Assembly (NCBI RefSeq): GCF_003574965.1
Contig: NZ_CP032317.1
Coordinates: 1,116,001 to 1,180,000 of the forward strand
Direction: 5' to 3'
Source of the DNA: Hymenobacter oligotrophus
GTDB lineage: Bacteria > Bacteroidota > Bacteroidia > Cytophagales > Hymenobacteraceae
Length of the DNA stretch: 64,000 bases
Under the pieces are notes generated by a model that worked only from the letters and a program-made list of their open reading frames with translations, did not search any database and was not told the origin of the DNA. Position 1 is the first letter of the stretch. Every line of letters starts with the position of its first letter. This document shows, piece by piece, positions 43,266 to 56,266 of the stretch. The translations under genes were made by a program, and so were the position numbers.

Positions 43266-46200
43266 ATGCACCCTGCTCCCGTAGCTCCCTACAAACCCCA
43301 GAACCACGTTCGCATCGTAACGGCGGCGGCGCTGTTCGACGGCCACGACGCGGCCATCAACATCATGCGCCGCATTATCCAAGCCTCAGGCGCTGAAGTA
43401 ATTCACCTAGGGCACAACCGCTCGGTGCAGGAAATCGTGGACTGCGCCATTCAGGAAGATGCCCAGGCCATAGCCATTACCTCGTACCAGGGCGGCCACA
43501 ACGAGTTCTTCAAGTACATGCACGACCTGCTCAAGGAGCGGGGCGCCGGCCATATCAAAATTTTCGGCGGCGGCGGCGGCGTAATTCTGCCCTCTGAAAT
43601 TGAGGAGTTGCAGGGCTACGGCATCACGCGCATCTACTCGCCCGACGACGGCCGCGCCATGGGCCTCCAGGGCATGATCAACGACCTGCTTGAAAAGGCC
43701 GACTTCCCGACGGGCAAAAACCTGAACGGCGAAGCCAAGCACGTAAAGGAGAAAGACGCCCTCAGCCTAGGTCGCCTCATCTCGGCTGCCGAAAACTTCC
43801 CCGAGGAATACGAGAAGGTGAAGCAGTTGTTAGTTGACAGTTATCAGTTGTCAGAACAAGGCCAGAACAACGGCCAACAGAACAACCTGACAACTGACAA
43901 CTCGCAACCGGCAACTAAAAAAGCACCCATTCTAGGCATCACCGGCACGGGTGGCGCGGGCAAGTCGTCGTTGGTAGATGAGCTGGTGCGCCGCTTCCTG
44001 CTCGACTTCCCCGACAAGACCATTGCCATTATTTCGGTTGACCCGAGCAAGCGCAAAACCGGCGGTGCCCTCCTTGGCGACCGTATCCGGATGAACGCCA
44101 TCAACAACCCGCGCGTGTACATGCGCAGCCTTGCTACCCGCCAGAGCAACCTGGCCCTGAGCAAGTATGTGCAGGATGCCGTGGACGTGGTGCGCGCCGC
44201 CGACTTCGACCTGATCATTCTGGAAACCTCCGGCATTGGCCAGAGCGACACCGAAATCATCGAGCACTCCGATGCCAGCCTGTACGTGATGACGCCCGAG
44301 TACGGCGCCGCCACGCAGCTGGAGAAAATCGACATGCTCGACTTCGCCGACGTCATCGCACTGAACAAGTTCGATAAGCGCGGCGCCCAGGACGCCCTGC
44401 GCGACGTGCGCAAGCAGTACCAGCGCAACCACCAGCTCTGGGACAAGCCCCTCGACGAGCTGCCCGTGTACGGCACCATTGCCTCGCAGTTCAACGACCC
44501 GGGCATGAACCGCCTGTACCGCGCCGTGCTGGCTACCATCGAGCAGAAAACCGGGGCCACGTTCAGCTCGCAGCTCGAAACTTCGGAGGCTGCCAGCGAG
44601 AAGGTGTATATCATTCCGCCCCACCGCACGCGTTACCTCTCCGAAATCACCGAAACGATTCGTCAGTATGACCAGTGGGTCGATAAACAAGCCGAAACCG
44701 CTCAGCAACTCTACGGAATCCAGCGAAGCATCGAAGCCGTTCGAAGCCTCGGCACAGGAGGAGCAGCCGCTAACGGAGCCGGGGGGAGCAGCAGCCACGG
44801 ACCCCAACCAACCGAACTCGCAACCGGCCTGGAGAAAGCCTTCGAGGAAATCAAGCTCCGGCTGGACGGGCAAAACTGGCGACTCCTGGAGACCTGGCCG
44901 CAAAAAGTAGCCGCCTACAAAGCTCCGGAGTTCATCTTCAAGGTGCGCGACAAGGAAATCCGCATCAAAACGCACTCCGAAACCCTCTCCCATTTGCAGG
45001 TGCCCAAAGTGGCCACCCCGCGCTACGAAGCCTGGGGCGACTTGCTTAAGTGGATGCTGCAGGAAAACGTACCCGGCGAGTTTCCCTACACCGCCGGCGT
45101 GTTCCCCTTTAAGCGTGAAGGCGAAGACCCCACCCGCATGTTTGCCGGCGAAGGCGGCCCCGAGCGCACCAACCGCCGCTTCCACTACGTGTCGGCTGGC
45201 TTGCCCGCCAAGCGCCTGAGCACGGCGTTCGACTCGGTGACGCTCTACGGCGAAGACCCTGACCTGCGCCCCGATATCTACGGCAAGATCGGCAACTCGG
45301 GCGTGAGCATCTGCTGCCTCGACGACGCCAAGAAGCTGTACTCCGGCTTCAACCTCGCCGACCCGGTTACCTCGGTGTCGATGACCATCAACGGCCCGGC
45401 CGCTACGCTGGCTGCTTGCTTCATGAACGCAGCCATCGACCAGCAGTGCGAGCTGTACATTAAGGAGAATGGCCTCGAAGCCGAGGTTGACGCCAAAATC
45501 AACCAGATCTACGAGGCCCTAGGTCAGGAGCGCCCCCGCTACCAAGGGCAGCTGCCCGAGGGCAACGACGGCCTAGGTCTGATGCTGCTCGGCGTAACCG
45601 GCGACCAGGTGCTGCCCGCCGAGGTGTACGAGCCCATCAAGGCCCGCACGCTCTCGCAGGTGCGCGGCACCGTGCAGGCCGACATCCTGAAAGAAGATCA
45701 GGCCCAGAACACCTGCATCTTCAGCACGGAGTTCTCGCTGCGCCTCATGGGCGACGTACAGCAGTACTTTATCACGAACAAGGTGCGGAACTTCTACTCC
45801 GTATCGATTTCGGGCTACCACATTGCCGAGGCCGGCGCCAACCCCATTACGCAGCTGGCCCTCACGCTGTCGAACGGCTTCACCTTCGTGGAGTACTACG
45901 TGAGCCGCGGCATGGACGTGAACGACTTCGCGCCCAACCTGTCGTTCTTCTTCTCGAACGGCATGGACCCCGAGTACTCGGTGATGGGCCGCGTGGCACG
46001 CCGCATTTGGGCCAAGGCCATGAAGCTGAAGTACAGCGCCAACAGCCGCTCGCAGATGTTGAAATACCACATCCAGACTTCGGGCCGCTCCTTGCACGCG
46101 CAGGAAATCGACTTCAACGATATCCGCACCACGCTGCAGGCGCTGTACGCCATTTACGACAACTGTAACTCGCTGCACACCAACGCCTACGACGAGGCCA

Positions 46201-46763
46201 TTACCACGCCTACCGAGGAATCGGTGCGCCGGGCCATGGCCATTCAGCTCATCATCAACCGCGAGCTGGGCTTGGCCAAGAACGAGAACCCGCTGCAGGG
46301 CTCGTTCATCATCGAGGAACTGACCGACCTGGTGGAAGAAGCCGTAATGGCCGAGTTCGACCGCATTACGGAGCGCGGCGGCGTGCTGGGTGCCATGGAA
46401 ACCATGTACCAGCGCGGAAAAATTCAGGAGGAAAGCCTCTACTACGAGATGCAGAAGCACACCGGCGAGTTGCCCATCATCGGCGTGAACACCTTCCTCT
46501 CGTCGAAAGGCTCGCCCACGGTGCAGCCGGCCGAAGTTATCCGCGCCACCGAGGACGAAAAGCAGTACCAGATTTCAATGCTGCAAAACCTGCACGTCCG
46601 CAACCGCGATAAGGCCGAAGACGCCCTGAAGCGCCTGCAGCAAAAGGCCGTGCAGAACGAAAACCTTTTCGAGGAGCTGATGGAAACGGTGAAGTCCTGC
46701 TCGCTCGGGCAGATTACCAACGCCCTGTTCGAAGTAGGCGGTCAGTACCGGCGGAATATGTAA
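43266..46763 (+). CDS. icmF: Fused isobutyryl-CoA mutase
   Basis: The 1165-residue protein joins a B12-binding domain (residues about 15-150; [13 protein letters not shown] supplies the cobalt-ligand His), a MeaB-like G-protein chaperone (P-loop GTGGAGKSS near 226-234) and the mutase TIM barrel (about 560-1150), the IcmF order. [27 protein letters not shown] is the IcmF substrate-pocket version, not the methylmalonyl-CoA mutase version. It rearranges isobutyryl- and n-butyryl-CoA. Residues about 188-218 are a Gln/Asn-rich linker encoded by a dispersed DNA repeat. A second Gly/Ser-rich linker lies near residues 495-520. Confidence 0.95.
43828..43918. repeat. Dispersed repeat inserted in frame within icmF
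   Basis: The left half reads TTAGTTGACAGTTATCAGTT and the right half ends CTGACAACTGACAACTCGCA and GGCAACT, i.e. inverted ACTG(A/G)(T/C)AACT-type words. The same words occur in intergenic DNA at 6579-6728. Here about 90 bp are read through without a stop and encode the linker between the B12 and G domains. Confidence 0.7.
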
Positions 46764-46788
46764 GCTGAGGCTGCTTGGGCTGAATGCG

Positions 46789-46826
46789 AACGGGTGCTAC
46801 CTTGCGAGAGGCAGCACCCGTTTTTT
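46789..46826 (+). terminator. Intrinsic terminator directly before a start codon
   Basis: AACGGGTGCT pairs with AGCACCCGTT over a 14-base loop and is followed by T6. It follows icmF by 26 bp and ends only 6 bp before ATG 46832. Confidence 0.8.
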
Positions 46827-46831
46827 GTTCT

Positions 46832-47347
46832 ATGGAAACAATTGAAGTTCGTTTCGCCGACTTACGCCGGGCCGCCGAGCAAGTGACAGCCTTCGTTGAG
46901 AAGCAATTAGGCTGCGAAGCTGAATATGGCTTACGCACCGGTGTAGAGGAAGATATGGGCAGCGCTGGGCTCGATACTGAACAGTTGCTTTGCGAGTTCT
47001 CTGAGCAGTTCAGGGTTGATGTTTCCAAGTTTGATTTCACTGGCTTTATCAGCCCGGAAGGTTTTCAGGATGGAGGCACCCCGCTTTGGATCATTCTAGG
47101 GCTGTTCTTCCTGGCCGTTTACGTCATTGCTTGGACAACCAAGTTTCTGATTGGAGCTATCTACTGGCCCTTCAACCCTAAAGCGGCTACCAGTTTCATT
47201 AATGAGCCCATCGGTAACCCTTTCCACTCAACACCGGCGCCACCCCGCAAGTCCCAGCATGACATCCTGACCATCGGCGACTTCGTAGCTTCCGCAGCTG
47301 CCGGGTACTTCGTGAAGCGGGAGCGGGTACGCTTCGTGTTTATATAG
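46832..47347 (+). CDS. DUF1493 family protein with a membrane segment
   Basis: The 171-residue product has an N-terminal DUF1493-like region (FVEKQLGCEAEYG, VEEDMGSAGLDTEQLLCEF, VDVSKFDFTGFISPEGF), an acyl-carrier-like fold without the phosphopantetheine Ser-motif context. One membrane helix follows (LWIILGLFFLAVYVIAWTT) and then a short tail with ILTIGDFVASAAAGYFVKRER. Such proteins often sit in toxin/immunity or contact-dependent regions, but nothing here proves that. It begins the segment without CCTAGG. Confidence 0.8.
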   Translation: METIEVRFADLRRAAEQVTAFVEKQLGCEAEYGLRTGVEEDMGSAGLDTEQLLCEFSEQFRVDVSKFDFTGFISPEGFQDGGTPLWIILGLFFLAVYVIAWTTKFLIGAIYWPFNPKAATSFINEPIGNPFHSTPAPPRKSQHDILTIGDFVASAAAGYFVKRERVRFVFI

Positions 47348-47775
47348 CTATACGTAGCGCATACCCAGTCCTCAAGGAGCTCCAGCCTCCGCAACAGTCC
47401 CAGTGGCGTTTATTCAGCTTCCGCTAACCGCTAAGCTTCATGTTATACAAATCCGCCCTTCGATTTATAGTAAACTATATCCGTTACAAATCTCACACAG
47501 AGAGAACAATTGCTGTTATTCCCTCAGTATCTCTTTTAGCAGCTAGAACACTGCTAATCAGAATACCTACTCTAATTATTCCTGGCTAGTAATTGGTAAT
47601 ACTTTACCTTCTTATATTAATAGACATAGCTTGTTCATTAGAAAAAGTACTGCACGCATTACCCCCATCAAAAACTGATTTCTTTACTTATTGAAAAATG
47701 CATCTAAACGCACTGAAAATGCCTTCCGAATTGGCAAAAGCACCTACTACCGCAAGGAGCCATAACTGAGAATAA
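47348..47775. other. AT-rich intergenic region, no gene recognised
   Basis: These 428 bp are clearly AT-richer than the rest of the window and contain no credible ORF or hairpin. They may be decayed foreign DNA. Confidence 0.5.
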
Positions 47776-48144
47776 ATGAAAGTTTTTCTGCTCTTACTAT
47801 GCCTGTTTCTCAGTCTTGGTTGTTCAAGAAATTATACTGGTGTGTATTATGACTCTTGCTTATTATACCACAGACCGGCGGTACGTCTCACTCTTAATCC
47901 AGATAAAACGTTTCATTATAAAATGATTTATTACGATACACTCATTACGGGATATTGGCAAAACTCACATGATACTTTAACCCTGAGGTCAAAGATATTT
48001 ACCATTCCAAGAAAGCCGCTTTCTCCTAAGATTAAATACATAGATTCCGATAGTGTTGATAGATTTGTAGCCAGCGGAAAAAAGCTCATTCCTATTACTA
48101 GTTCTACAGACCCAGTTAAACAGTGTTATTTAAAAAAGCATTAG
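47776..48144 (+). CDS. Low-G+C small lipoprotein
   Basis: The 122-residue product has a signal peptide with lipobox (LFLSLGC). The body alternates Tyr/Lys-rich strands (YTGVYYDSCLLYHRPAVRLTL, TLITGYWQNSHDTLTL), suggesting a small beta sandwich. Its codons are far more AT-rich than the flanking genes, which points to horizontal origin. No family recognised. It lies just upstream of the nested inverted repeat of the RAYT element. Confidence 0.65.
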   Translation: MKVFLLLLCLFLSLGCSRNYTGVYYDSCLLYHRPAVRLTLNPDKTFHYKMIYYDTLITGYWQNSHDTLTLRSKIFTIPRKPLSPKIKYIDSDSVDRFVASGKKLIPITSSTDPVKQCYLKKH

Positions 48145-48185
48145 TAGTAAACATAAATCTTGTACGAGACGGGCCTGCCCCACGC

Positions 48186-48382
48186 TGGCGCGAGTTTAGC
48201 GCAGCGTAACTCGTGACCAGCCATGAGGTGGAGGCTGTGCCTCCACTGCCGCCAACAGCGGCAAACCGGCCACGCGTCGCTCGGATAACTTGCTAATCCG
48301 GGCGGCGTTGGTCGTTCTGACGGGGGAGGCACAGCCTCCCGGCAAGGCTGGTCACGAGTTACGCTGCGCTAAACTCGCGCCA
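48186..48382. repeat. Large nested inverted repeat (REP/BIME-like) upstream of the RAYT gene
   Basis: Outer arms 48186-48222 and 48346-48382 are perfect 37-bp reverse complements. Inner arms 48230-48244 and 48325-48339 (GGAGGCTGTGCCTCC and its complement) are also perfect, and each inner arm is itself a small hairpin. The structure ends 41 bp before the transposase-like gene at 48424 and is the presumed substrate of that protein. Confidence 0.85.
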
Positions 48383-48423
48383 GGCAGAGCCAGGCAAAGC
48401 CGGCAAACGGCTACCTTATCGGT

Positions 48424-48972
48424 ATGAGTGAGAAGTATAAGATTCAGGATTCGCGGCAGCTCTATTTTGTTTCCTTCGCCACCGTCAACTGGATTGACGT
48501 ATTTACGCGGCGGCTTTACAACGACCTCTTCGTGGACGGCCTGCGCTATTGCCAGCAGCACAAAGGATTGGAAGTGTACGCCTGGTGCCTGATGACCAAC
48601 CACGCCCACCTCATCATTAGCAGCGAACAGGACAACCTCTCGGCCATCCTGCGCGACCTGAAACGCCACACCGCCAAAACCCTGCTGCAAGCTATTCAAG
48701 AAAACCAGCAGGAAAGCCGCCGCGAGTGGATGCTGTGGATGTTCCGACGCGCCGGGCAGCGCAATACCCACAACGAGCACTACCAGTTCTGGCAGCAGAA
48801 CAACCACCCCATCGAGCTTTATTCCAACGAGCTGCGCCGCCAGCGGCTGGAGTACCTGCACCGCAACCCCGTATCGGCTGGTTTTGTAGATGCGCCCGAA
48901 GACTTTCAATATAGCAGCGCCCGCAATTACGCCGGTCGGCCGGGGTTGCTGGATGTGTTACTAATTGGCTAA
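48424..48972 (+). CDS. REP-associated tyrosine transposase (RAYT, Y1 HUH family)
   Basis: The 182-residue protein of the IS200/IS605-related Y1 superfamily has the HUH motif in CLMTNHAHLIIS (metal-binding His pair) and the C-terminal HRNPVSAGFVDAPEDFQYSSARNYAG, where one of the Tyr residues should be the nucleophile. Length fits single-domain RAYTs, which process REP palindromes and are usually not mobile by themselves. A 197-bp nested palindrome lies immediately upstream, and a deleted copy of the element lies at 51895-52016. Confidence 0.92.
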   Translation: MSEKYKIQDSRQLYFVSFATVNWIDVFTRRLYNDLFVDGLRYCQQHKGLEVYAWCLMTNHAHLIISSEQDNLSAILRDLKRHTAKTLLQAIQENQQESRREWMLWMFRRAGQRNTHNEHYQFWQQNNHPIELYSNELRRQRLEYLHRNPVSAGFVDAPEDFQYSSARNYAGRPGLLDVLLIG

Positions 48973-49140
48973 TCACAACTGCAAGAGGCCCCAGCAGCCA
49001 GCCGGTTCCGCGCCGCTTGGTCGCCGACCGGACGGCGCGAGGCGTATACTGCGGCTGCCGCTCGCCCCTCCCCTCGCCGCCTCAGTGCGTAAGGGTGTTT
49101 GCGAGTTGAGTCCACGTACTTTTTTTTAAAGTTTCCTCGA

Positions 49141-49944
49141 ATGCCACATCCAAACCCGGGATTCAGCCGAAACCAGCACTGGCCCTACTACCTTACCGAA
49201 GCCGCGGGCCTGGCCCTGTTCGTAATCGGAACCGGCCTGCTTTCCATCGCCTTGGAGCACCCGGACTCGGGGCTGCACCAGGCCCTGGCGGCGCGCGGCA
49301 TAGGCCAGGAGCTGCGCCGAGTGCCGCTGGGCGTGGGGATGGGGCTGCTGGTGGCGGCCATTACCTATACCCCCTGGGGCCAGCGTTCCGGGGCCCACCT
49401 CAACCCGGCCATCACGCTGGCTTTCTGGCAGCTGGGCAAAATCAGCGGCACCGATGCGCTCTGGTACGCCCTGGCCCAGGCGGTAGGCGGCTTCGCGTCG
49501 GTGTGGCTGCTCAAACTCACCCTCTTCGCCTATTACAGCCACCCCCGTATTGATTTCGGCACCACCCAGCCCGGACCCGACGGCCCCTTGGTGGCCTTCG
49601 TTGCGGAATTCGTCATTGCCTTGGTGTTTATGCTGGCGCTGCTGGCGGCGCTGCACTCGGCGCAGCTGCACAAGGCCGCGGGCTGGATCGGGGCGGGGCT
49701 GCTGGCCGCGTACGTGATCTGGGAAACGCCCCTCTCCGGCATGAGCCTAAATCCGCTGCGCAGCCTGGCCTCCGCCGTGGCAGCCCGCGACTACACCGGG
49801 CTGTGGCTGTACCTGGTAGCGTCCCCGGCCGCCATGTGGCTGGCGGCCATGCTGTTTCAGCGGCTCCGGCAAGCCAGCCCGCGTCGTCGATCAGGCGCCG
49901 CAGCGACGGAGCCGCCGCATTACCCGGATGTGGCGGCCGGCTGA
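49141..49944 (+). CDS. Aquaporin / MIP family channel
   Basis: The 267-residue membrane protein has six hydrophobic segments. The first NPA box is intact (SGAHLNPAITLAFWQLG); the second half-helix reads LSGMSLNPLRSLASAV, with NPL instead of NPA. Such substitutions occur in some aquaporins and can change selectivity, so water or small-solute transport is likely but the solute is unknown. ATG 49141 starts MPHPNPGFSRNQHW. The gene is very G+C-rich and lies inside the CCTAGG-free segment. Confidence 0.9.
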   Translation: MPHPNPGFSRNQHWPYYLTEAAGLALFVIGTGLLSIALEHPDSGLHQALAARGIGQELRRVPLGVGMGLLVAAITYTPWGQRSGAHLNPAITLAFWQLGKISGTDALWYALAQAVGGFASVWLLKLTLFAYYSHPRIDFGTTQPGPDGPLVAFVAEFVIALVFMLALLAALHSAQLHKAAGWIGAGLLAAYVIWETPLSGMSLNPLRSLASAVAARDYTGLWLYLVASPAAMWLAAMLFQRLRQASPRRRSGAAATEPPHYPDVAAG

Positions 49945-50062
49945 GGCTGCTGCGCTGCCACCGCGGCAGCCAAGGCGGCCAAAGCCTAGTGCCCGAAGGG
50001 CAGGAACACCTAGTCAAGACCGGCGTTTGGCCGGTGCCCTAACCGCTGGCGCCTGGGTGGCC

Positions 50063-51703
50063 CTACTGGCCCGCCAGCCCGGCCCGAAACGCCGGCGCCC
50101 GCCGGTGGCCGGTGGCCTGCTCGTAGGCGTAGCCCAGCCCCAGCAGGCGGGCCTCGCTCCAGGCCGGGCCCACGAACGAGAGGCCCACCGGCAGCCCGTG
50201 GACTTGCCCCATGGGCACGGTCAGGTGGGGGTAGCCGGCCGTAGCGGCAGGCGTGGTGAAGCTCGGGCCCGCGTCGGAGTCGCCGTGCACCAGGTCCAGG
50301 CTCCAGGCCGGGCCGGCGGTAATGCCCACCAGGGCCGCGAGCCGAAGGCCGGTAAACAGTTGGTCCAGGCCGCGGCGGCTTGCGTCGTTGGAGCGGGCCA
50401 GCGCGGCCCGGTACCGGGCGCTGCCCAGCCCGGTGGTTTGCTCGGCCCGTTCTAGCAGCTCCTGCTCGAAATACGGCATCACGCGGGCCTCGTGCTTCCG
50501 GTTGAAAGCAATGACCTCGGCCAGAGACTTTACCGGCGCTCCGGCCGCGGCCAGGTAGCGGTTCACGCTGTCCTTAAACTCGTGGAGCAGCACTTCCATC
50601 TCGGCTTCGCCAATGGGCTTGAGCGGCCGCGGCAGCTCTACTTCCACGAGGGTGGCCCCCAGCTTTTTCAGCTCCGCGACGGCCTGCCGCAGCAAGTCCC
50701 CGGCGGCGGAAGGGTCGCGCAGGTGGGACTTTTCCACGCCCAGGCGCTGGCCCTGCAGGGCGCTGGCTTGCAGGTAAGCGGTGTAGTCGGTCGGGTCCTG
50801 CCCGGCGCGGGCGGCGGTAGCCGGGTCGGCGGGGTCGGGCGCCGCCGAGGGGCCGGCCAGCGCGCCCAGCAGCAGGGCCGCGTCGCGCACGGTGCGCGCG
50901 AGCGGGCCGGCCGTGTCCTGGGTGCTGGAAATCGGGATGATGCCCGCCCGGCTCAGCAGCCCCACGGTGGGCTTGAGGCCCACTAAGCCGCAGGCCGAAG
51001 CCGGCGACACCACCGATCCGTCGGTTTCGGTGCCCACGGCGGCGGCGCACAGGTTGGCCGCCGCCGCCACGGCCGAGCCGGAGCTGGAACCGTTGGGCGA
51101 GCGGTCGAGCACGTAGGGGTTGCGCGTTTGCCCGCCCAGCGTGCTCCAGCCGTTGGAGCTGCTGGTCGAGCGGAAGTTCGACCACTCGCTTAAGTTGGCT
51201 TTGCCCAGCAGCACGGCCCCGGCGGCACGCAGCTGCCGGACGATGAACGCGTCCTGCCGGGCCCGGTGGCGGGCCAGCACCAGGGCCCCGGCGGTTGTGA
51301 ACTGACTGTCGCCGGTGTCGATGTTGTCTTTGAGCAGAATCGGGATGCCGTGCAGCGGCCCGCGCACCCGGCCGGCCCGCCGCTCCTGGTCCAGCGCGTC
51401 GGCGATGCGCAGCGCCTCGGGGTTGGTCGAGAGCACGGCGCGCAGGGTGGGGCCCTTGTGGTTTAGCGCTTCGATGCGCTGCAGATACAGCTCCGTCAGC
51501 TGCCGGGCCGAGTAGCGGCCCTGCTGCTGGTAGGCTTGCAAGTCCGCCAGCGTAGCCTCATGCAGGGGGCCGCCGGACGCTTCGCCGGCGGGCGGGGCGG
51601 CTTCGGACGGGGCGCTTTCCGGGGGCGAACAGACGCTAAGCGGCAGCGCGGCCAGGGCCGTGGTGGCCAGGGCGGCGTGGCGCAGAAAGAGGCGGCGGTG
51701 CAT
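50063..51703 (-). CDS. Exported amidase (amidase-signature family)
   Basis: The 546-residue product has an N-terminal signal (RRLFLRHAALATTALAALPLSVC) with a Cys that could be lipidated. The Ser-cisSer-Lys triad is visible: Lys in IPILLKDNIDTGD, cis-Ser in PNGSSSGSAVAAAA and the nucleophile in GTETDGSVVSPAS. It hydrolyses amides, but the substrate is unknown. ATG 51703 is chosen; the longer frame to 51922 runs into the remnant of the RAYT element. The gene is very G+C-rich. Confidence 0.92.
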   Translation of the reverse strand: MHRRLFLRHAALATTALAALPLSVCSPPESAPSEAAPPAGEASGGPLHEATLADLQAYQQQGRYSARQLTELYLQRIEALNHKGPTLRAVLSTNPEALRIADALDQERRAGRVRGPLHGIPILLKDNIDTGDSQFTTAGALVLARHRARQDAFIVRQLRAAGAVLLGKANLSEWSNFRSTSSSNGWSTLGGQTRNPYVLDRSPNGSSSGSAVAAAANLCAAAVGTETDGSVVSPASACGLVGLKPTVGLLSRAGIIPISSTQDTAGPLARTVRDAALLLGALAGPSAAPDPADPATAARAGQDPTDYTAYLQASALQGQRLGVEKSHLRDPSAAGDLLRQAVAELKKLGATLVEVELPRPLKPIGEAEMEVLLHEFKDSVNRYLAAAGAPVKSLAEVIAFNRKHEARVMPYFEQELLERAEQTTGLGSARYRAALARSNDASRRGLDQLFTGLRLAALVGITAGPAWSLDLVHGDSDAGPSFTTPAATAGYPHLTVPMGQVHGLPVGLSFVGPAWSEARLLGLGYAYEQATGHRRAPAFRAGLAGQ

Positions 51704-51894
51704 AAGGCGGACGCGGCGGGGGCGCGTAGTAAAGCGGCGTTTGACGGATTCAACCGGCTGAGGACGGCCGAGCAAACCGCGCCAGCACCCGGCTCGCCGT
51801 AAGTTTACGAAACGCCTAACACTTCGCCGGCGCACGCTTCCGGCACGCGTCAGCGGCGTCGCGGCAAGGTCAGCATGGGTTGCGGGCTGAACGC

Positions 51895-52016
51895 GCGGCG
51901 GCGCTAAACTCGCGCCAGGCAACGCCCGGCCGGTCTTGCTGGATGTTTCACCGATTAGCTGGTCATAACCGCAAGCAGCTCCAGCCTCACTGGCGGCTAA
52001 CCGGTACCGCGCCGCT
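51895..52016. mobile_element. Deletion remnant of the RAYT element
   Basis: The left part (51901-51920 GCGCTAAACTCGCGCCAGGC) is identical to the right outer arm and flank at 48367-48387. It is followed at once by a diverged copy of the last codons and 3' flank of the RAYT gene (TTGCTGGATGT at 51938 against 48948; CCGCGCCGCT at 52006 against 49008). About 550 bp of the coding region is missing, leaving a short non-autonomous derivative. Confidence 0.75.
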
Positions 52017-52162
52017 GGGAATCGTCTGGGCGGGGCGGCTTTTTAGTGGTTATCCTTGCAGTGGTCCGCTACCCGCAGGTTTTATTCGGGTCGGATTCTG
52101 ATTTCCCCAAACCTTGCCCCCCGGGGCGAGTTGCTCACTCGTCTCGTCTCTCAAACTACCTC

Positions 52163-52645
52163 ATGATCCTGTACTCCGGCATCGCACCGCTGGCCCAGCT
52201 CGACAAGCGCAAGGGCGGCTATTACTACCTGCACTTGCCCGCCGAGCTGGTGGCGCAGTTTCCGCAGCAGGGCCGCACCCGCTTGGTGTGCACCCTCGAC
52301 GGACGCGTGTCGTACAGCTGCGGCCTGAACCACTTCGGCGACGGCAGCTTTTTCGTCATTGTGGCGGGCAAGCACCTGAAAACATTGGGTAAGCAACTGG
52401 GCGACGAGATAAACGCGGCGCTGAGCCTGGATGAGGACCCGCTGGGCGTGGAGGTACCCGAGGTACTGGCCGCGCTGCTGGCCCAGGACGAAGCCTTGCA
52501 CGCCCGCTTTGTGGCCCTCACCGTGGGCAAGCAGCGCAGCATCGTGCACGCTGTGGCCCGGCTCAAGGACCTGGACAAGCAATTAGCGCTTGCTACGCAG
52601 CTGGTGCACGAAGCGGCCCGCCCGCGCCCGCGGCGGGCTGGGTAG
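52163..52645 (+). CDS. DUF1905 / YdeI-OmpD-associated family protein
   Basis: The 160-residue product has an N-terminal DUF1905 beta barrel (YYYLHLPAELVAQFP, TLDGRVSYSCGLNHFGDGSFFVIVAGKHLKTLGKQLGDEI) and a C-terminal YdeI/OmdA-like helical part (EVPEVLAALLAQDEALHARFVALTVGKQRSIVHAV). The biochemical role is unknown; some relatives are linked to antimicrobial-peptide or bacteriocin protection. It is cytoplasmic. It uses G+C-rich codons and has no CCTAGG. Confidence 0.85.
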   Translation: MILYSGIAPLAQLDKRKGGYYYLHLPAELVAQFPQQGRTRLVCTLDGRVSYSCGLNHFGDGSFFVIVAGKHLKTLGKQLGDEINAALSLDEDPLGVEVPEVLAALLAQDEALHARFVALTVGKQRSIVHAVARLKDLDKQLALATQLVHEAARPRPRRAG

Positions 52646-52858
52646 GCGTCACGGGGCCGCACCCACCACCGGGCATTTGCTTTAGGGCCTGAGCCACGAT
52701 CCCGGTTCCACGGCCTAACTTCCTGGCGCATAAATCTTGCGTGCCCAAACCGGGCCGCGCCACGCGCCCGCGGCTGGCCGGTGCATAAGCCAGAGCGGCG
52801 CTAGGAGGCATTTGCCGCCCCGGCAACCCGGCAGCGGCAAAACCAGTTAGCTTGGCGC

Positions 52859-54295
52859 ATGAACAGCCCCGAAAAACCCGCCGCGTCCGCACCCGCAACC
52901 CTAATTCGTGCCTTTGGCGCCGCGAGCGGCACTATGCTGGTGGCGGGCATCGTGATAGGCTCTGGCGTATTCAAGAAAATCGTACCGCTGGCCCAGAGCG
53001 GCTTGAGCGAGGAGTGGATACTGGCAGCCTGGGTAGCGGCAGGCGTGGTTACAATTTGCGGAGCCCTTAATCTGTCGGGCATGGCGTCGCTTACCGAGGA
53101 GTCGGGCGGGGTGTACGAGTACCTGCGGTTGTCGTTCGGCAACTTCGCCTCGTTTTTGTTCGGCTGGACGGATTACGCCATCATTGGCTCAGCCTCGGTG
53201 GCGGCGCTGGCCTTCATTTTTGCCCAATCGGTAAACTCCCTGCTGCCCTTGCCCAACCCGGCCGAGGCCTGGGCGCAGCTATCCGTTGGGGGATGGATTT
53301 ACCCCTTTGCCGATTCGGGCATTAAGCTGCTGGCCATTGGCACCACGGCGGCGCTTACCTGGGTAAACTACCGGGGCGTAAGCGGCAGCGGGCGGCTCAG
53401 CATTGTATTTACGGCGGCCAAAATCATGGGCATACTCCTGCTGATTCTGGCGGGCATATTCTTGTCGGCGCCAACGCCGGATGGCGCGGCAGCGGCCGCC
53501 CCGGCGCCCGTGCGCGAGGTGTCGTTGGCCAGTGCTTTTTTGGGCGCGCTGCTCAGCGTGTTCTGGGCCTACGACGGTTGGGTGGATTTGTCCTTCGTGA
53601 CGGGCGAAATTAAAGACCCGCGCCGCAACGTACCCAGGGCCATCATCGGGGGCGTAACGGTGGCCATCATCCTGTACGTGCTGGTAAACTACGCCTACCT
53701 GCGGGCCCTGCCGTTGGCCGCGCTGGCAGCGGTAGGCCCCAACGAAATAGGCGCCGCCGCGGCGGCCGAGGCGCTGCTGGGCGCGTGGGGCAAAACCGGC
53801 GTGGCGGTGCTGATTTTGGTAAGCGTATTTGGAACGCTTAATGCGGTACTGCTCTCGCACGCCCGGGTGCAGTTTCGGATGGCGCAGGAAGGCTACTTTT
53901 TTCGGGCCGCCGCCGCAGTGCACCCGCGCTACCGCACCCCCCACCGGGCCTTGCTGTTCACGATGGCCTGGAGTACCGTGCTCATTGTGTCGGGCACCTT
54001 CGAGCGGCTAACCGATCTGGTCATTTTCGCCACTTTCTTGTTTTATGGCTTGCTGGCCGTGGCCGTGGTCAACATGAAGCGCCTAGGTCGGATACCGGGC
54101 CCGGTGCCGGGGTACCCGTACGTGCAAATTCTGCTCTTGCTGTTTGCCGCTACGTTCACGCTGCACACCCTTGTAACGCAACCGGTGCAGTCGGCCATGG
54201 GGCTGGGGCTGATCATGACGGGGTTGCCGCTGTTCGTGTATTTCCGCTGGAAGGTCCGCACGCAACCAACCGAGGCCGTGCAGCAGGGCGCATAG
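52859..54295 (+). CDS. Amino acid permease (APC superfamily)
   Basis: The 478-residue integral membrane protein has about 12 hydrophobic segments. TM1 carries GTMLVAGIVIGSGVF, the substrate-carboxylate-binding Gly-rich unwound helix of the family; SVFWAYDGWVDLSFVTGEIKDPRRNVPRAI is the typical TM6-loop. It probably moves amino acids with H+ or as an exchanger; specificity is not predictable. The only CCTAGG of this gene lies near its 3' end (54082), marking the right boundary of the motif-free segment. Confidence 0.92.
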   Translation: MNSPEKPAASAPATLIRAFGAASGTMLVAGIVIGSGVFKKIVPLAQSGLSEEWILAAWVAAGVVTICGALNLSGMASLTEESGGVYEYLRLSFGNFASFLFGWTDYAIIGSASVAALAFIFAQSVNSLLPLPNPAEAWAQLSVGGWIYPFADSGIKLLAIGTTAALTWVNYRGVSGSGRLSIVFTAAKIMGILLLILAGIFLSAPTPDGAAAAAPAPVREVSLASAFLGALLSVFWAYDGWVDLSFVTGEIKDPRRNVPRAIIGGVTVAIILYVLVNYAYLRALPLAALAAVGPNEIGAAAAAEALLGAWGKTGVAVLILVSVFGTLNAVLLSHARVQFRMAQEGYFFRAAAAVHPRYRTPHRALLFTMAWSTVLIVSGTFERLTDLVIFATFLFYGLLAVAVVNMKRLGRIPGPVPGYPYVQILLLLFAATFTLHTLVTQPVQSAMGLGLIMTGLPLFVYFRWKVRTQPTEAVQQGA

Positions 54296-54433
54296 GTCGG
54301 GTAGCTCAACGTAGCACCAGGAGCTAGTGCAGCGAAGCGTTGTGGCTGATTCCCAACTCGGCTCGGCATCGGCCGTTCGGGCTGCCTGTGTGAGGCGGTA
54401 GCGCACAGCGGGTAATTGTTTAGCTTTACCCTC

Positions 54434-56266
54434 ATGCGCGCAGCCTTCAACTGGTCGAAAAAACGCTTGCTAGCGGTGCTGGTGGGTTTGGCCGCCTGCT
54501 CTTCGCCCGATCAGCCCACCGACCAGCCTACCCTCAACCAAAGCCCAAGCGTACGCTACACCGCCAAGCGCGTGGTGCTGCCCGATGTGCCGCAGCGCGG
54601 CCGCATTCTCGACCGCCACGACTCCGTGCTGGTTGATACCCGCACGCAGTACTTGCTGAAGCTGCCCCGCCGTGGGCAACTCGATACCCTGGCCCTAGGT
54701 GAGCTGCTCGGCTGGGATTCGACCACGGTGCGCCGACGCATTGTCGATGCCCTGTCCTACGGCCAGGCGTCGCGCGGCTACGCCGTTCAGCTTAGCTTAA
54801 CCAAAGCCGAAGCCGAACGCATACGCCGCGACAGCAGCGCCACGGTGCCGCAGCTCACCTTGTGGGAGCGACCCAGGCGCACTTACACCTCCCCTGCCGC
54901 CGCTCCCGTGCTGGGCTACCTAGGGGCCGAAGCGCAAGCCTTCTATAACCAGGCCAAGCGCTACCGGCGCGGCCGGTTTTACCGGCTGCGCAACGGCGGC
55001 GTGGAGGCCTACTACAACGGCCTGCTGGCGGGGCACCGCGGCTACCTGCACCCACTGGTTGATGCGCAGGGCAAACAGCACGGCAGTTGGGCCAAGGATA
55101 CCGCTTTTCAGCAAGGCCAGGATTTGCACCTGACCATTGATGTGAAGCTGCAAACCTACGCCGAGAAGCTAATGGGCGGCCGCAAAGGCTACTTGGTAGC
55201 CCTCGACCCGCGCACCGGCGAAATTCTGGCTTACGTGTCGGGGCCGGTGTACCAGGCCAGCACTATCACCGCGCCCGACCAGGCCGGCGTGCGCACGAAG
55301 CTGCTGGAGCACGAAGACCTGCCCCTGCTGAACCGCCCGGCCATGCTGGCCAACCCGCCCGGCTCGGTGTTTAAGCTGGTGAATGCGGCCGTGGCCCTGC
55401 AAATGCACGCCATCACGCCGGCCTCGGCCTTTCGCTGCGACCAGTCGCTGGTAAACTGCGTGCACCGCCACCCGCCGGGCAAAAACCTCACGGCGGCTCT
55501 CAAGTACAGCTGTAACCCGTACTTCTACCGGGTAATGGAAACGCTGATCGACTGCGTGCCCGATACCTTGGCGGGCGACACCATAGCCGCCCGCCACGCC
55601 AATTTGGCCCAGTGGCGCCGCTACGCCCGCTCGTTCGGCCTCGACTCGGCCCTAGGTGTCGATTTGCCCCGCGAAGCCAAGGGCCACTTGCCCACCCCCG
55701 CGTACTACGACAAAGCCCGCCGCACCCGCGGCTGGACGTACCGCTCCATTTACTCGCTCAGCATCGGGCAGGGCGAAATCAACCTCACGGGGCTGCAAAT
55801 GGCCAACATGGCGGTCATCATCGCCAACCGCGGCTGGTACTACGCGCCCCATTTGGTGCGCAGCGTGGGCGAGAGCGGTCCGCTGCCGCGCTTCACCCAA
55901 AAGCACCGCACCCTGATTGATAGCGTGCATTTTGCCGCCCTAGTGCCGGGCATGGTGGCCGTAATGCAGCGCGGCGGCACCGCCGATGCCTCCAGCCTGG
56001 CCGATGTGGGCATTAAAGTGGCGGGCAAAACCGGCACCGTGGAAAACGACGAGGGCGACGACCACGCGGCGTTCGTGGGTTTTGCGCCGGCCGACAACCC
56101 CAAAATTGCCGTGGCCGTGTACCTCGAAAACGCCGGTTTTGGCGCTACCGCCGCCGCCCCGTGCGCCGTGTTGGTGATGGAGAAATACCTCCGGGGCAGC
56201 ATTGCGCCCAAGCGCAAGCGTTGGGAGAAACGCATTCAGAACCGGGCCCGCCGCGAGGACTTTTAG
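54434..56266 (+). CDS. Penicillin-binding protein 2-like transpeptidase with lipobox
   Basis: The 610-residue class B PBP has the pedestal region RGRILDRHDSVLV and then the transpeptidase. SxxK is in PPGSVFKL (Ser311), SxN is SCN (Ser359) and KTG is in VAGKTGTVEN (from Lys532). The N-terminus is short (RLLAVLVGLAACSS) and ends in a lipobox-like LAAC instead of the usual long transmembrane helix, so it may be lipid-anchored. It crosslinks peptidoglycan during growth. No mreCD or rodA gene is adjacent. Confidence 0.93.
   Translation: MRAAFNWSKKRLLAVLVGLAACSSPDQPTDQPTLNQSPSVRYTAKRVVLPDVPQRGRILDRHDSVLVDTRTQYLLKLPRRGQLDTLALGELLGWDSTTVRRRIVDALSYGQASRGYAVQLSLTKAEAERIRRDSSATVPQLTLWERPRRTYTSPAAAPVLGYLGAEAQAFYNQAKRYRRGRFYRLRNGGVEAYYNGLLAGHRGYLHPLVDAQGKQHGSWAKDTAFQQGQDLHLTIDVKLQTYAEKLMGGRKGYLVALDPRTGEILAYVSGPVYQASTITAPDQAGVRTKLLEHEDLPLLNRPAMLANPPGSVFKLVNAAVALQMHAITPASAFRCDQSLVNCVHRHPPGKNLTAALKYSCNPYFYRVMETLIDCVPDTLAGDTIAARHANLAQWRRYARSFGLDSALGVDLPREAKGHLPTPAYYDKARRTRGWTYRSIYSLSIGQGEINLTGLQMANMAVIIANRGWYYAPHLVRSVGESGPLPRFTQKHRTLIDSVHFAALVPGMVAVMQRGGTADASSLADVGIKVAGKTGTVENDEGDDHAAFVGFAPADNPKIAVAVYLENAGFGATAAAPCAVLVMEKYLRGSIAPKRKRWEKRIQNRARREDF

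Follow-up and report, generated by a model that had tools for sequence, protein, structure and literature searches.

Single-strand cleavage at REP hairpins is an established idea for the REP-associated tyrosine transposases (RAYTs). Nunvar et al. (2010; PMC2817692) report inverted REPs on both sides of rayt genes and orthologs that remain at one genomic position; in some genomes REPs can build up around rayt, and four cases are described in which a rayt 3′ end with its spacer has been built into a BIME. The section of Bertels and Rainey (2011; PMC3116915) on which we rely presents RAYTs as single-copy genes that apparently cannot move themselves. The locus described here lies in a window of 64,000 nucleotides (the whole stretch of DNA that was analysed) of Hymenobacter oligotrophus, and resembles the REPIN-RAYT systems of that section in having a single-copy, apparently non-mobile RAYT beside palindromic repeats; unlike theirs, however, the repeat is longer and, in its own genome, not dispersed. 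The main features are given below, where CORE denotes a hairpin module of about 76 nt, for which a model, R1, was built from 18 copies.

43266-46763, + strand: icmF (fused isobutyryl-CoA mutase/GTPase), the locus anchor; NCBIfam NF045497, 1784.8 bits; syntenic in relatives
48167-48400, + strand: REPIN-like palindrome of about 220 bp immediately upstream of the RAYT, built of paired outer arms around an inner hairpin (from inverted repeat and fold)
48424-48972, + strand: RAYT, 182 aa, intact; NCBIfam NF047646, Pfam PF01797
48966-49042, + strand: CORE hairpin module at the RAYT 3′ end; R1 54.7 bits (this copy is in the R1 training set)
49140-51827: acquired block, with an aquaporin-like MIP gene (+ strand, PF00230) and an amidase gene (- strand, PF01425)

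The score of the transposase with NF047646 (91.6 bits against a curated cut-off of 80) identifies it as a RAYT; a comparison with PDB gave no significant match, the top entry being TnpArep (4er8, E 0.047). The palindrome upstream is formed by an inverted repeat at 48173-48225 and 48343-48395, 89% complementary, with a predicted single-stranded DNA fold of -104.9 kcal/mol (z -15), and related palindromes are found 5′ of other Hymenobacter RAYTs. In the window the RAYT thus has a palindrome on its 5′ side and, on its 3′ side, a CORE in direct rather than inverted orientation. Inverted palindromes of about 200 bp occur on both sides of the RAYT in loci L230, L236, L237, L238 and others. The 3′ flank of the RAYT in genome G007 was considered as a truncated hairpin and rejected, being the conserved leader of an APC gene. 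A DUF1493 gene (46784-47347) lies directly 3′ of icmF, and occupies the same place in L181, L182 and L230.

The distribution of the RAYT in relatives shows how stable its position is. Among 204 genomes of the family, 15 have a close RAYT (at least 74% identity), including those of Hymenobacter crusticola, H. roseosalivarius, H. terricola, H. montanus and Hymenobacter sp. BT188. In 14 of the 15, G116 being the exception, the RAYT is found 0.8-3.6 kb from icmF and always on its 3′ side. Eight of these 14 share the strand of icmF and six are on the opposite strand, a pattern for which the tree needs one orientation change; recombination between inverted flanking palindromes could have produced it. 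None of the 15 genomes has two close copies, the two matches in G110 being one sequence that stands at either end of a single contig, and a protein search of the other collected loci found no RAYT fragments. The RAYT itself has therefore stayed in place, and is a single-copy gene with a stable genomic position. The original prediction that the element had moved or duplicated within this segment holds only for its second part, in that RAYT-derived DNA must have been duplicated locally at least once.

The product of that duplication lies about 3 kb away. It had been described, at 51895-52016, as an outer arm joined directly to a diverged RAYT 3′ end from which the gene body is missing. Alignment bears out this anatomy, and the homology is real but somewhat longer than proposed, at about 51885-52040; this stretch is collinear with 48345-49042 of the RAYT element, with about 542 bp of gene body absent. 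It has three parts:

51885-51921, + strand: copy of the right outer arm of the RAYT palindrome, with a 21-nt exact run and a soft left edge
51922-51961, + strand: junction and decayed end of the RAYT coding sequence, RPVLLDVSPISWS* against RPGLLDVLLIG* in the gene
51962-52040, + strand: 3′ spacer and CORE hairpin, followed by CTTTTT (from R1 and BLAST)

The exact run equates 51901-51921 with 48366-48386 in the right arm of the palindrome, and arm identity is 23/24 over 51898-51921; the left boundary is not sharp, since the homology is gradually lost between 51898 and 51885. Beyond the junction, 51927-51985 aligns ungapped with 48937-48995 at 76% (27/35 in the coding end, 18/24 in the spacer), and the homology to the RAYT 3′ end runs on through the hairpin to about 52040. 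There R1 scores 67.3 bits at 51965-52040, a copy that is itself in the training set; against an independent CORE in G007, the hairpin gives a BLAST E value of 2.9e-8. Similarity outside the identical arm is not due to chance: over the whole element the alignment score is 84, where 500 dinucleotide shuffles reach no more than 43, and taken separately the 5′ part scores 46 against at most 37 and the 3′ part 79 against at most 46 (1000 shuffles each). Searched against its own genome, the derivative finds only the 5′ and 3′ pieces of the RAYT element (E 6e-6 and 7e-5). The last 12 or so RAYT codons are retained in the RAYT frame, but the stop has been lost and leucines replaced, so that this end is decayed and not functional. 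The 3′ spacer is that of the RAYT in the same genome, whereas the G007 RAYT, with 91% amino acid identity, has a different one. To judge from these alignments, the parent of the derivative is the neighbouring RAYT. No further copy was found in the genome, and searching 203 other genomes of the family did not reveal the junction, so the search for similar short derivatives came back empty. The arm pattern occurs at four sites genome-wide, three of them in the window. Three apparent junction copies were rejected: in L141 the match lies in what appears to be another gene, L145 has only the arm in common, and L136 shares the arm and not the RAYT end.

We consider it probable that 51885-52040 is an inert, single-copy scar of the neighbouring RAYT, left by one local REP-bounded event or else by duplication followed by deletion. 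The scar would have arisen once, through REP-bounded copying or recombination that took the rayt 3′ end together with its hairpin; cleavage of single strands by the RAYT at REP hairpins is the likely agent, by analogy with the rest of the family. Such copying would explain the scar so that a full second RAYT is not required. The rayt 3′ ends found in BIMEs provide a precedent, at least in the cases of PMC2817692 considered here: these likewise consist of a REP, a rayt 3′ end with spacer and a REP, while the rayt stays put. Compared with that arrangement, the right hairpin and the rayt end are present and the left REP is reduced to one arm. The scar further differs from those cases in being a single decayed copy, in a member of the Bacteroidota, with a palindrome of about 220 bp instead of a short REP, and in bordering an acquired block. 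Several observations count against the explanation that we prefer. A proper REP-spacer-REP unit would have a full REP on the left, and here that half is incomplete; the mechanism of copying leaves no trace visible in the sequence; BLAST gives each half, taken alone, modest support (per-genome E of 1e-4 to 1e-6); and the arm is less diverged (23/24) than the rest (45/59; Fisher p 0.056), so that a separate or later origin of the arm may apply.

The second route to such a scar, an internal deletion, had been proposed from the start. Here the complete unit of REPIN, RAYT and hairpin would have been duplicated about 3 kb off, and some 542 bp of gene body then lost, perhaps via short GCC/GCCGG homology. 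The parent minus 48387-48928 (542 nt, the best single-deletion fit in a scan, with near-equal alternatives within a few nt) indeed matches the derivative almost end to end, and short G-C-rich repeats are found close to both breakpoints. Nevertheless, no two close RAYT copies occur in any of the 15 genomes, and the left half of the palindrome is also gone, so that a second loss is needed. We regard this history as possible but doubtful. Less probable again is a coincidence of two unrelated events, in which a lone remnant of a palindrome arm landed beside a rayt 3′ end and hairpin that had been copied independently: the two parts do differ in divergence, and arm and CORE remnants are found separately in other icmF loci, but order, orientation and near-register are all as in the parent and the homology is continuous at the junction. 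Finally, the original prediction had called the derivative MITE-like. That the RAYT mobilises it in trans as a MITE, or once did so, is very improbable and largely refuted by copy number, since despite the RAYT-type end sequences and the intact RAYT nearby there is a single decayed copy, its junction is confined to one of the family genomes searched, and the missing left arm means that there are no terminal inverted repeats. The scar is old, of an already reported kind, and not a MITE.

Between the RAYT and its scar lies the acquired block. It has a homolog in contig 6 of G053 (6301-8995 of L263), a genome of another genus-level group, with 83.7% DNA identity across 2713 aligned columns. The amidase shares 89% identity with that of G053, and no other amidase listed exceeds 67%; the seven congeners have none of its kind at an E of 1e-150 or below. 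Homology to G053 stops at 49140 on one side and at 51827 on the other, within the space that separates the hairpin units, and thus the block sits between 48966-49042 and 51885-52040. In G007 and G036 an APC permease gene lies directly 3′ of the RAYT; the stretch of aquaporin, amidase, scar and DUF1905 is therefore extra in the H. oligotrophus genome. One border of the insert is now formed by the scar and the other by the hairpin of the RAYT itself, so that the insert lies between directly repeated hairpin units. Near the G053 copy we found no strong CORE (best 12.8 bits) and no match to the arm.

The CORE hairpin recurs downstream of icmF across the genus. At 60 bits or more, R1 has 29 matches in 18 of the 204 family genomes, one G110 match being counted twice (both ends of one contig), and every one of the 29 falls in a stretch with icmF; of the 18 genomes, eight contributed no training sequence, although the training copies come mostly from icmF loci and so favour that subfamily. 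Matches of 30-60 bits include dispersed palindromes away from icmF, several of them at 50-60 bits (L192, L194, L195, L196, L241). With a limit of 45 bits there are 36 copies in 25 icmF loci, none upstream of the icmF end and 35 of the 36 on the icmF strand, a count taken over related genomes. These copies separate unrelated genes 3′ of icmF, and whole segments between them recur between species (segment 2 of L046 is segment 1 of L048; segment 1 of L180 is segment 1 of L186), with the order of two segments opposite in L180 and L193. The species pair of L181 and L182 differs by a 199-aa gene between two hairpins, present in one and absent in the other, and the single hairpin of L182 corresponds to the first hairpin on its left and to the second on its right, with the switch in the loop. 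On this sequence pattern, recombination inside the hairpin led to the gain or loss of the gene. The hybrid hairpin is accounted for equally well by plain recombination between repeats of about 76 nt and by a dedicated enzyme.

Within a limit of 25 nt, 14 of 111 block boundaries fall at a CORE in both genomes, against 1.5 expected, and 34 of 111 in at least one, a weak excess over the 24.4 expected by chance; the genome pairs behind these counts are not independent. Shared segments mostly have the same identity as icmF or a lower one, so that vertical descent is possible for most. The exception is segment D, at 90-92% between G001 and G048/G055 compared with 85% for icmF. The cargo of icmF loci includes an Mrr-type endonuclease, a GNAT acetyltransferase, a SoFic-like Fic protein and a HamB helicase. 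Defence-like cargo, to which the endonuclease, the Fic protein and the helicase belong, lies beside icmF in L046, L180, L186, L193 and L197, where a PLD/DrmC-like protein and a CapP/RmrA-like peptidase are also found. A second small transposase-like protein, with a GAYFVTICT motif, is encoded near icmF in L193 (4722-5279), L190 and L180; that of L193 has no Pfam match.

In chromosomal integron cassette arrays, hairpin repeats in one orientation stand between unrelated genes 3′ of a fixed anchor, and genes are gained or lost at the hairpin. The icmF locus resembles these arrays in each of these respects. In contrast, the CORE consensus, examined by eye, lacks the attC core motifs, no integrase was found among the cargo proteins scanned, and a RAYT is present in a minority of icmF loci. 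We tentatively raise the reading, on balance unlikely, that in Hymenobacter the DNA 3′ of icmF forms an array of gene cassettes, with COREs of REP type, linked to the resident RAYT, as the sites of exchange; genes, several of them phage-defence-like, would come and go by recombination within the hairpin. The scar would then mark one such event, which imported the aquaporin-amidase block along with a RAYT tail. Against this reading stand the bias of R1, the relatedness of the genomes, the possible vertical descent of most shared segments and the folding results given below. No title on Hymenobacter REPs or integrons, Bacteroidetes RAYTs or REP defence hotspots matched a locus of this kind, which does not prove its absence in print.

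By itself the scar is minor, a further case of a reported kind, suggesting that rayt gene ends, besides REPs, get copied or recombined in Bacteroidota. The interest is mainly in the surrounding icmF locus: its anchor is fixed, some species have a resident RAYT, and hairpins locked in one orientation lie between genes that are swapped. The locus offers a concrete place to ask why a domesticated, immobile RAYT is kept, a question of the REPIN-RAYT field.

The folding of the CORE was assessed in several ways. RNAalifold on the CORE set gave changes on both sides in none of eight predicted pairs, and thus base pairing is not supported by covariation. As DNA, the derivative hairpin (z -0.78) and the RAYT 3′ hairpin (z -0.55) are no more stable than shuffles; the CORE at L047:4068 clearly is (z -2.87, 2 of 200 shuffles as stable), and that at L048:7560 weakly so (z -1.32, 21 of 200). 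A terminator role of the derivative hairpin was set aside: there is a match at 52022-52038, but the region has 5 against 3.3 expected. An Rfam scan of 46700-54500 found no relevant family; its one match, to mir-662, fell below threshold and lay at an unrelated position. About 66 nt are conserved after icmF; an attachment-like site was considered there and dropped, the stretch reading as the icmF terminator. In four loci, a direct-orientation duplicate of the icmF 3′ end, 85-97% identical, lies past an insert of about 0.6 kb, at these positions downstream of icmF:

L239, +671 to +822: duplicated icmF 3′ end
L238, +665 to +747: duplicated icmF 3′ end
L182, +572 to +702: duplicated icmF 3′ end
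L181, +571 to +687: duplicated icmF 3′ end

These duplicates give the impression of elements that insert at the 3′ end of icmF and push the earlier end aside.
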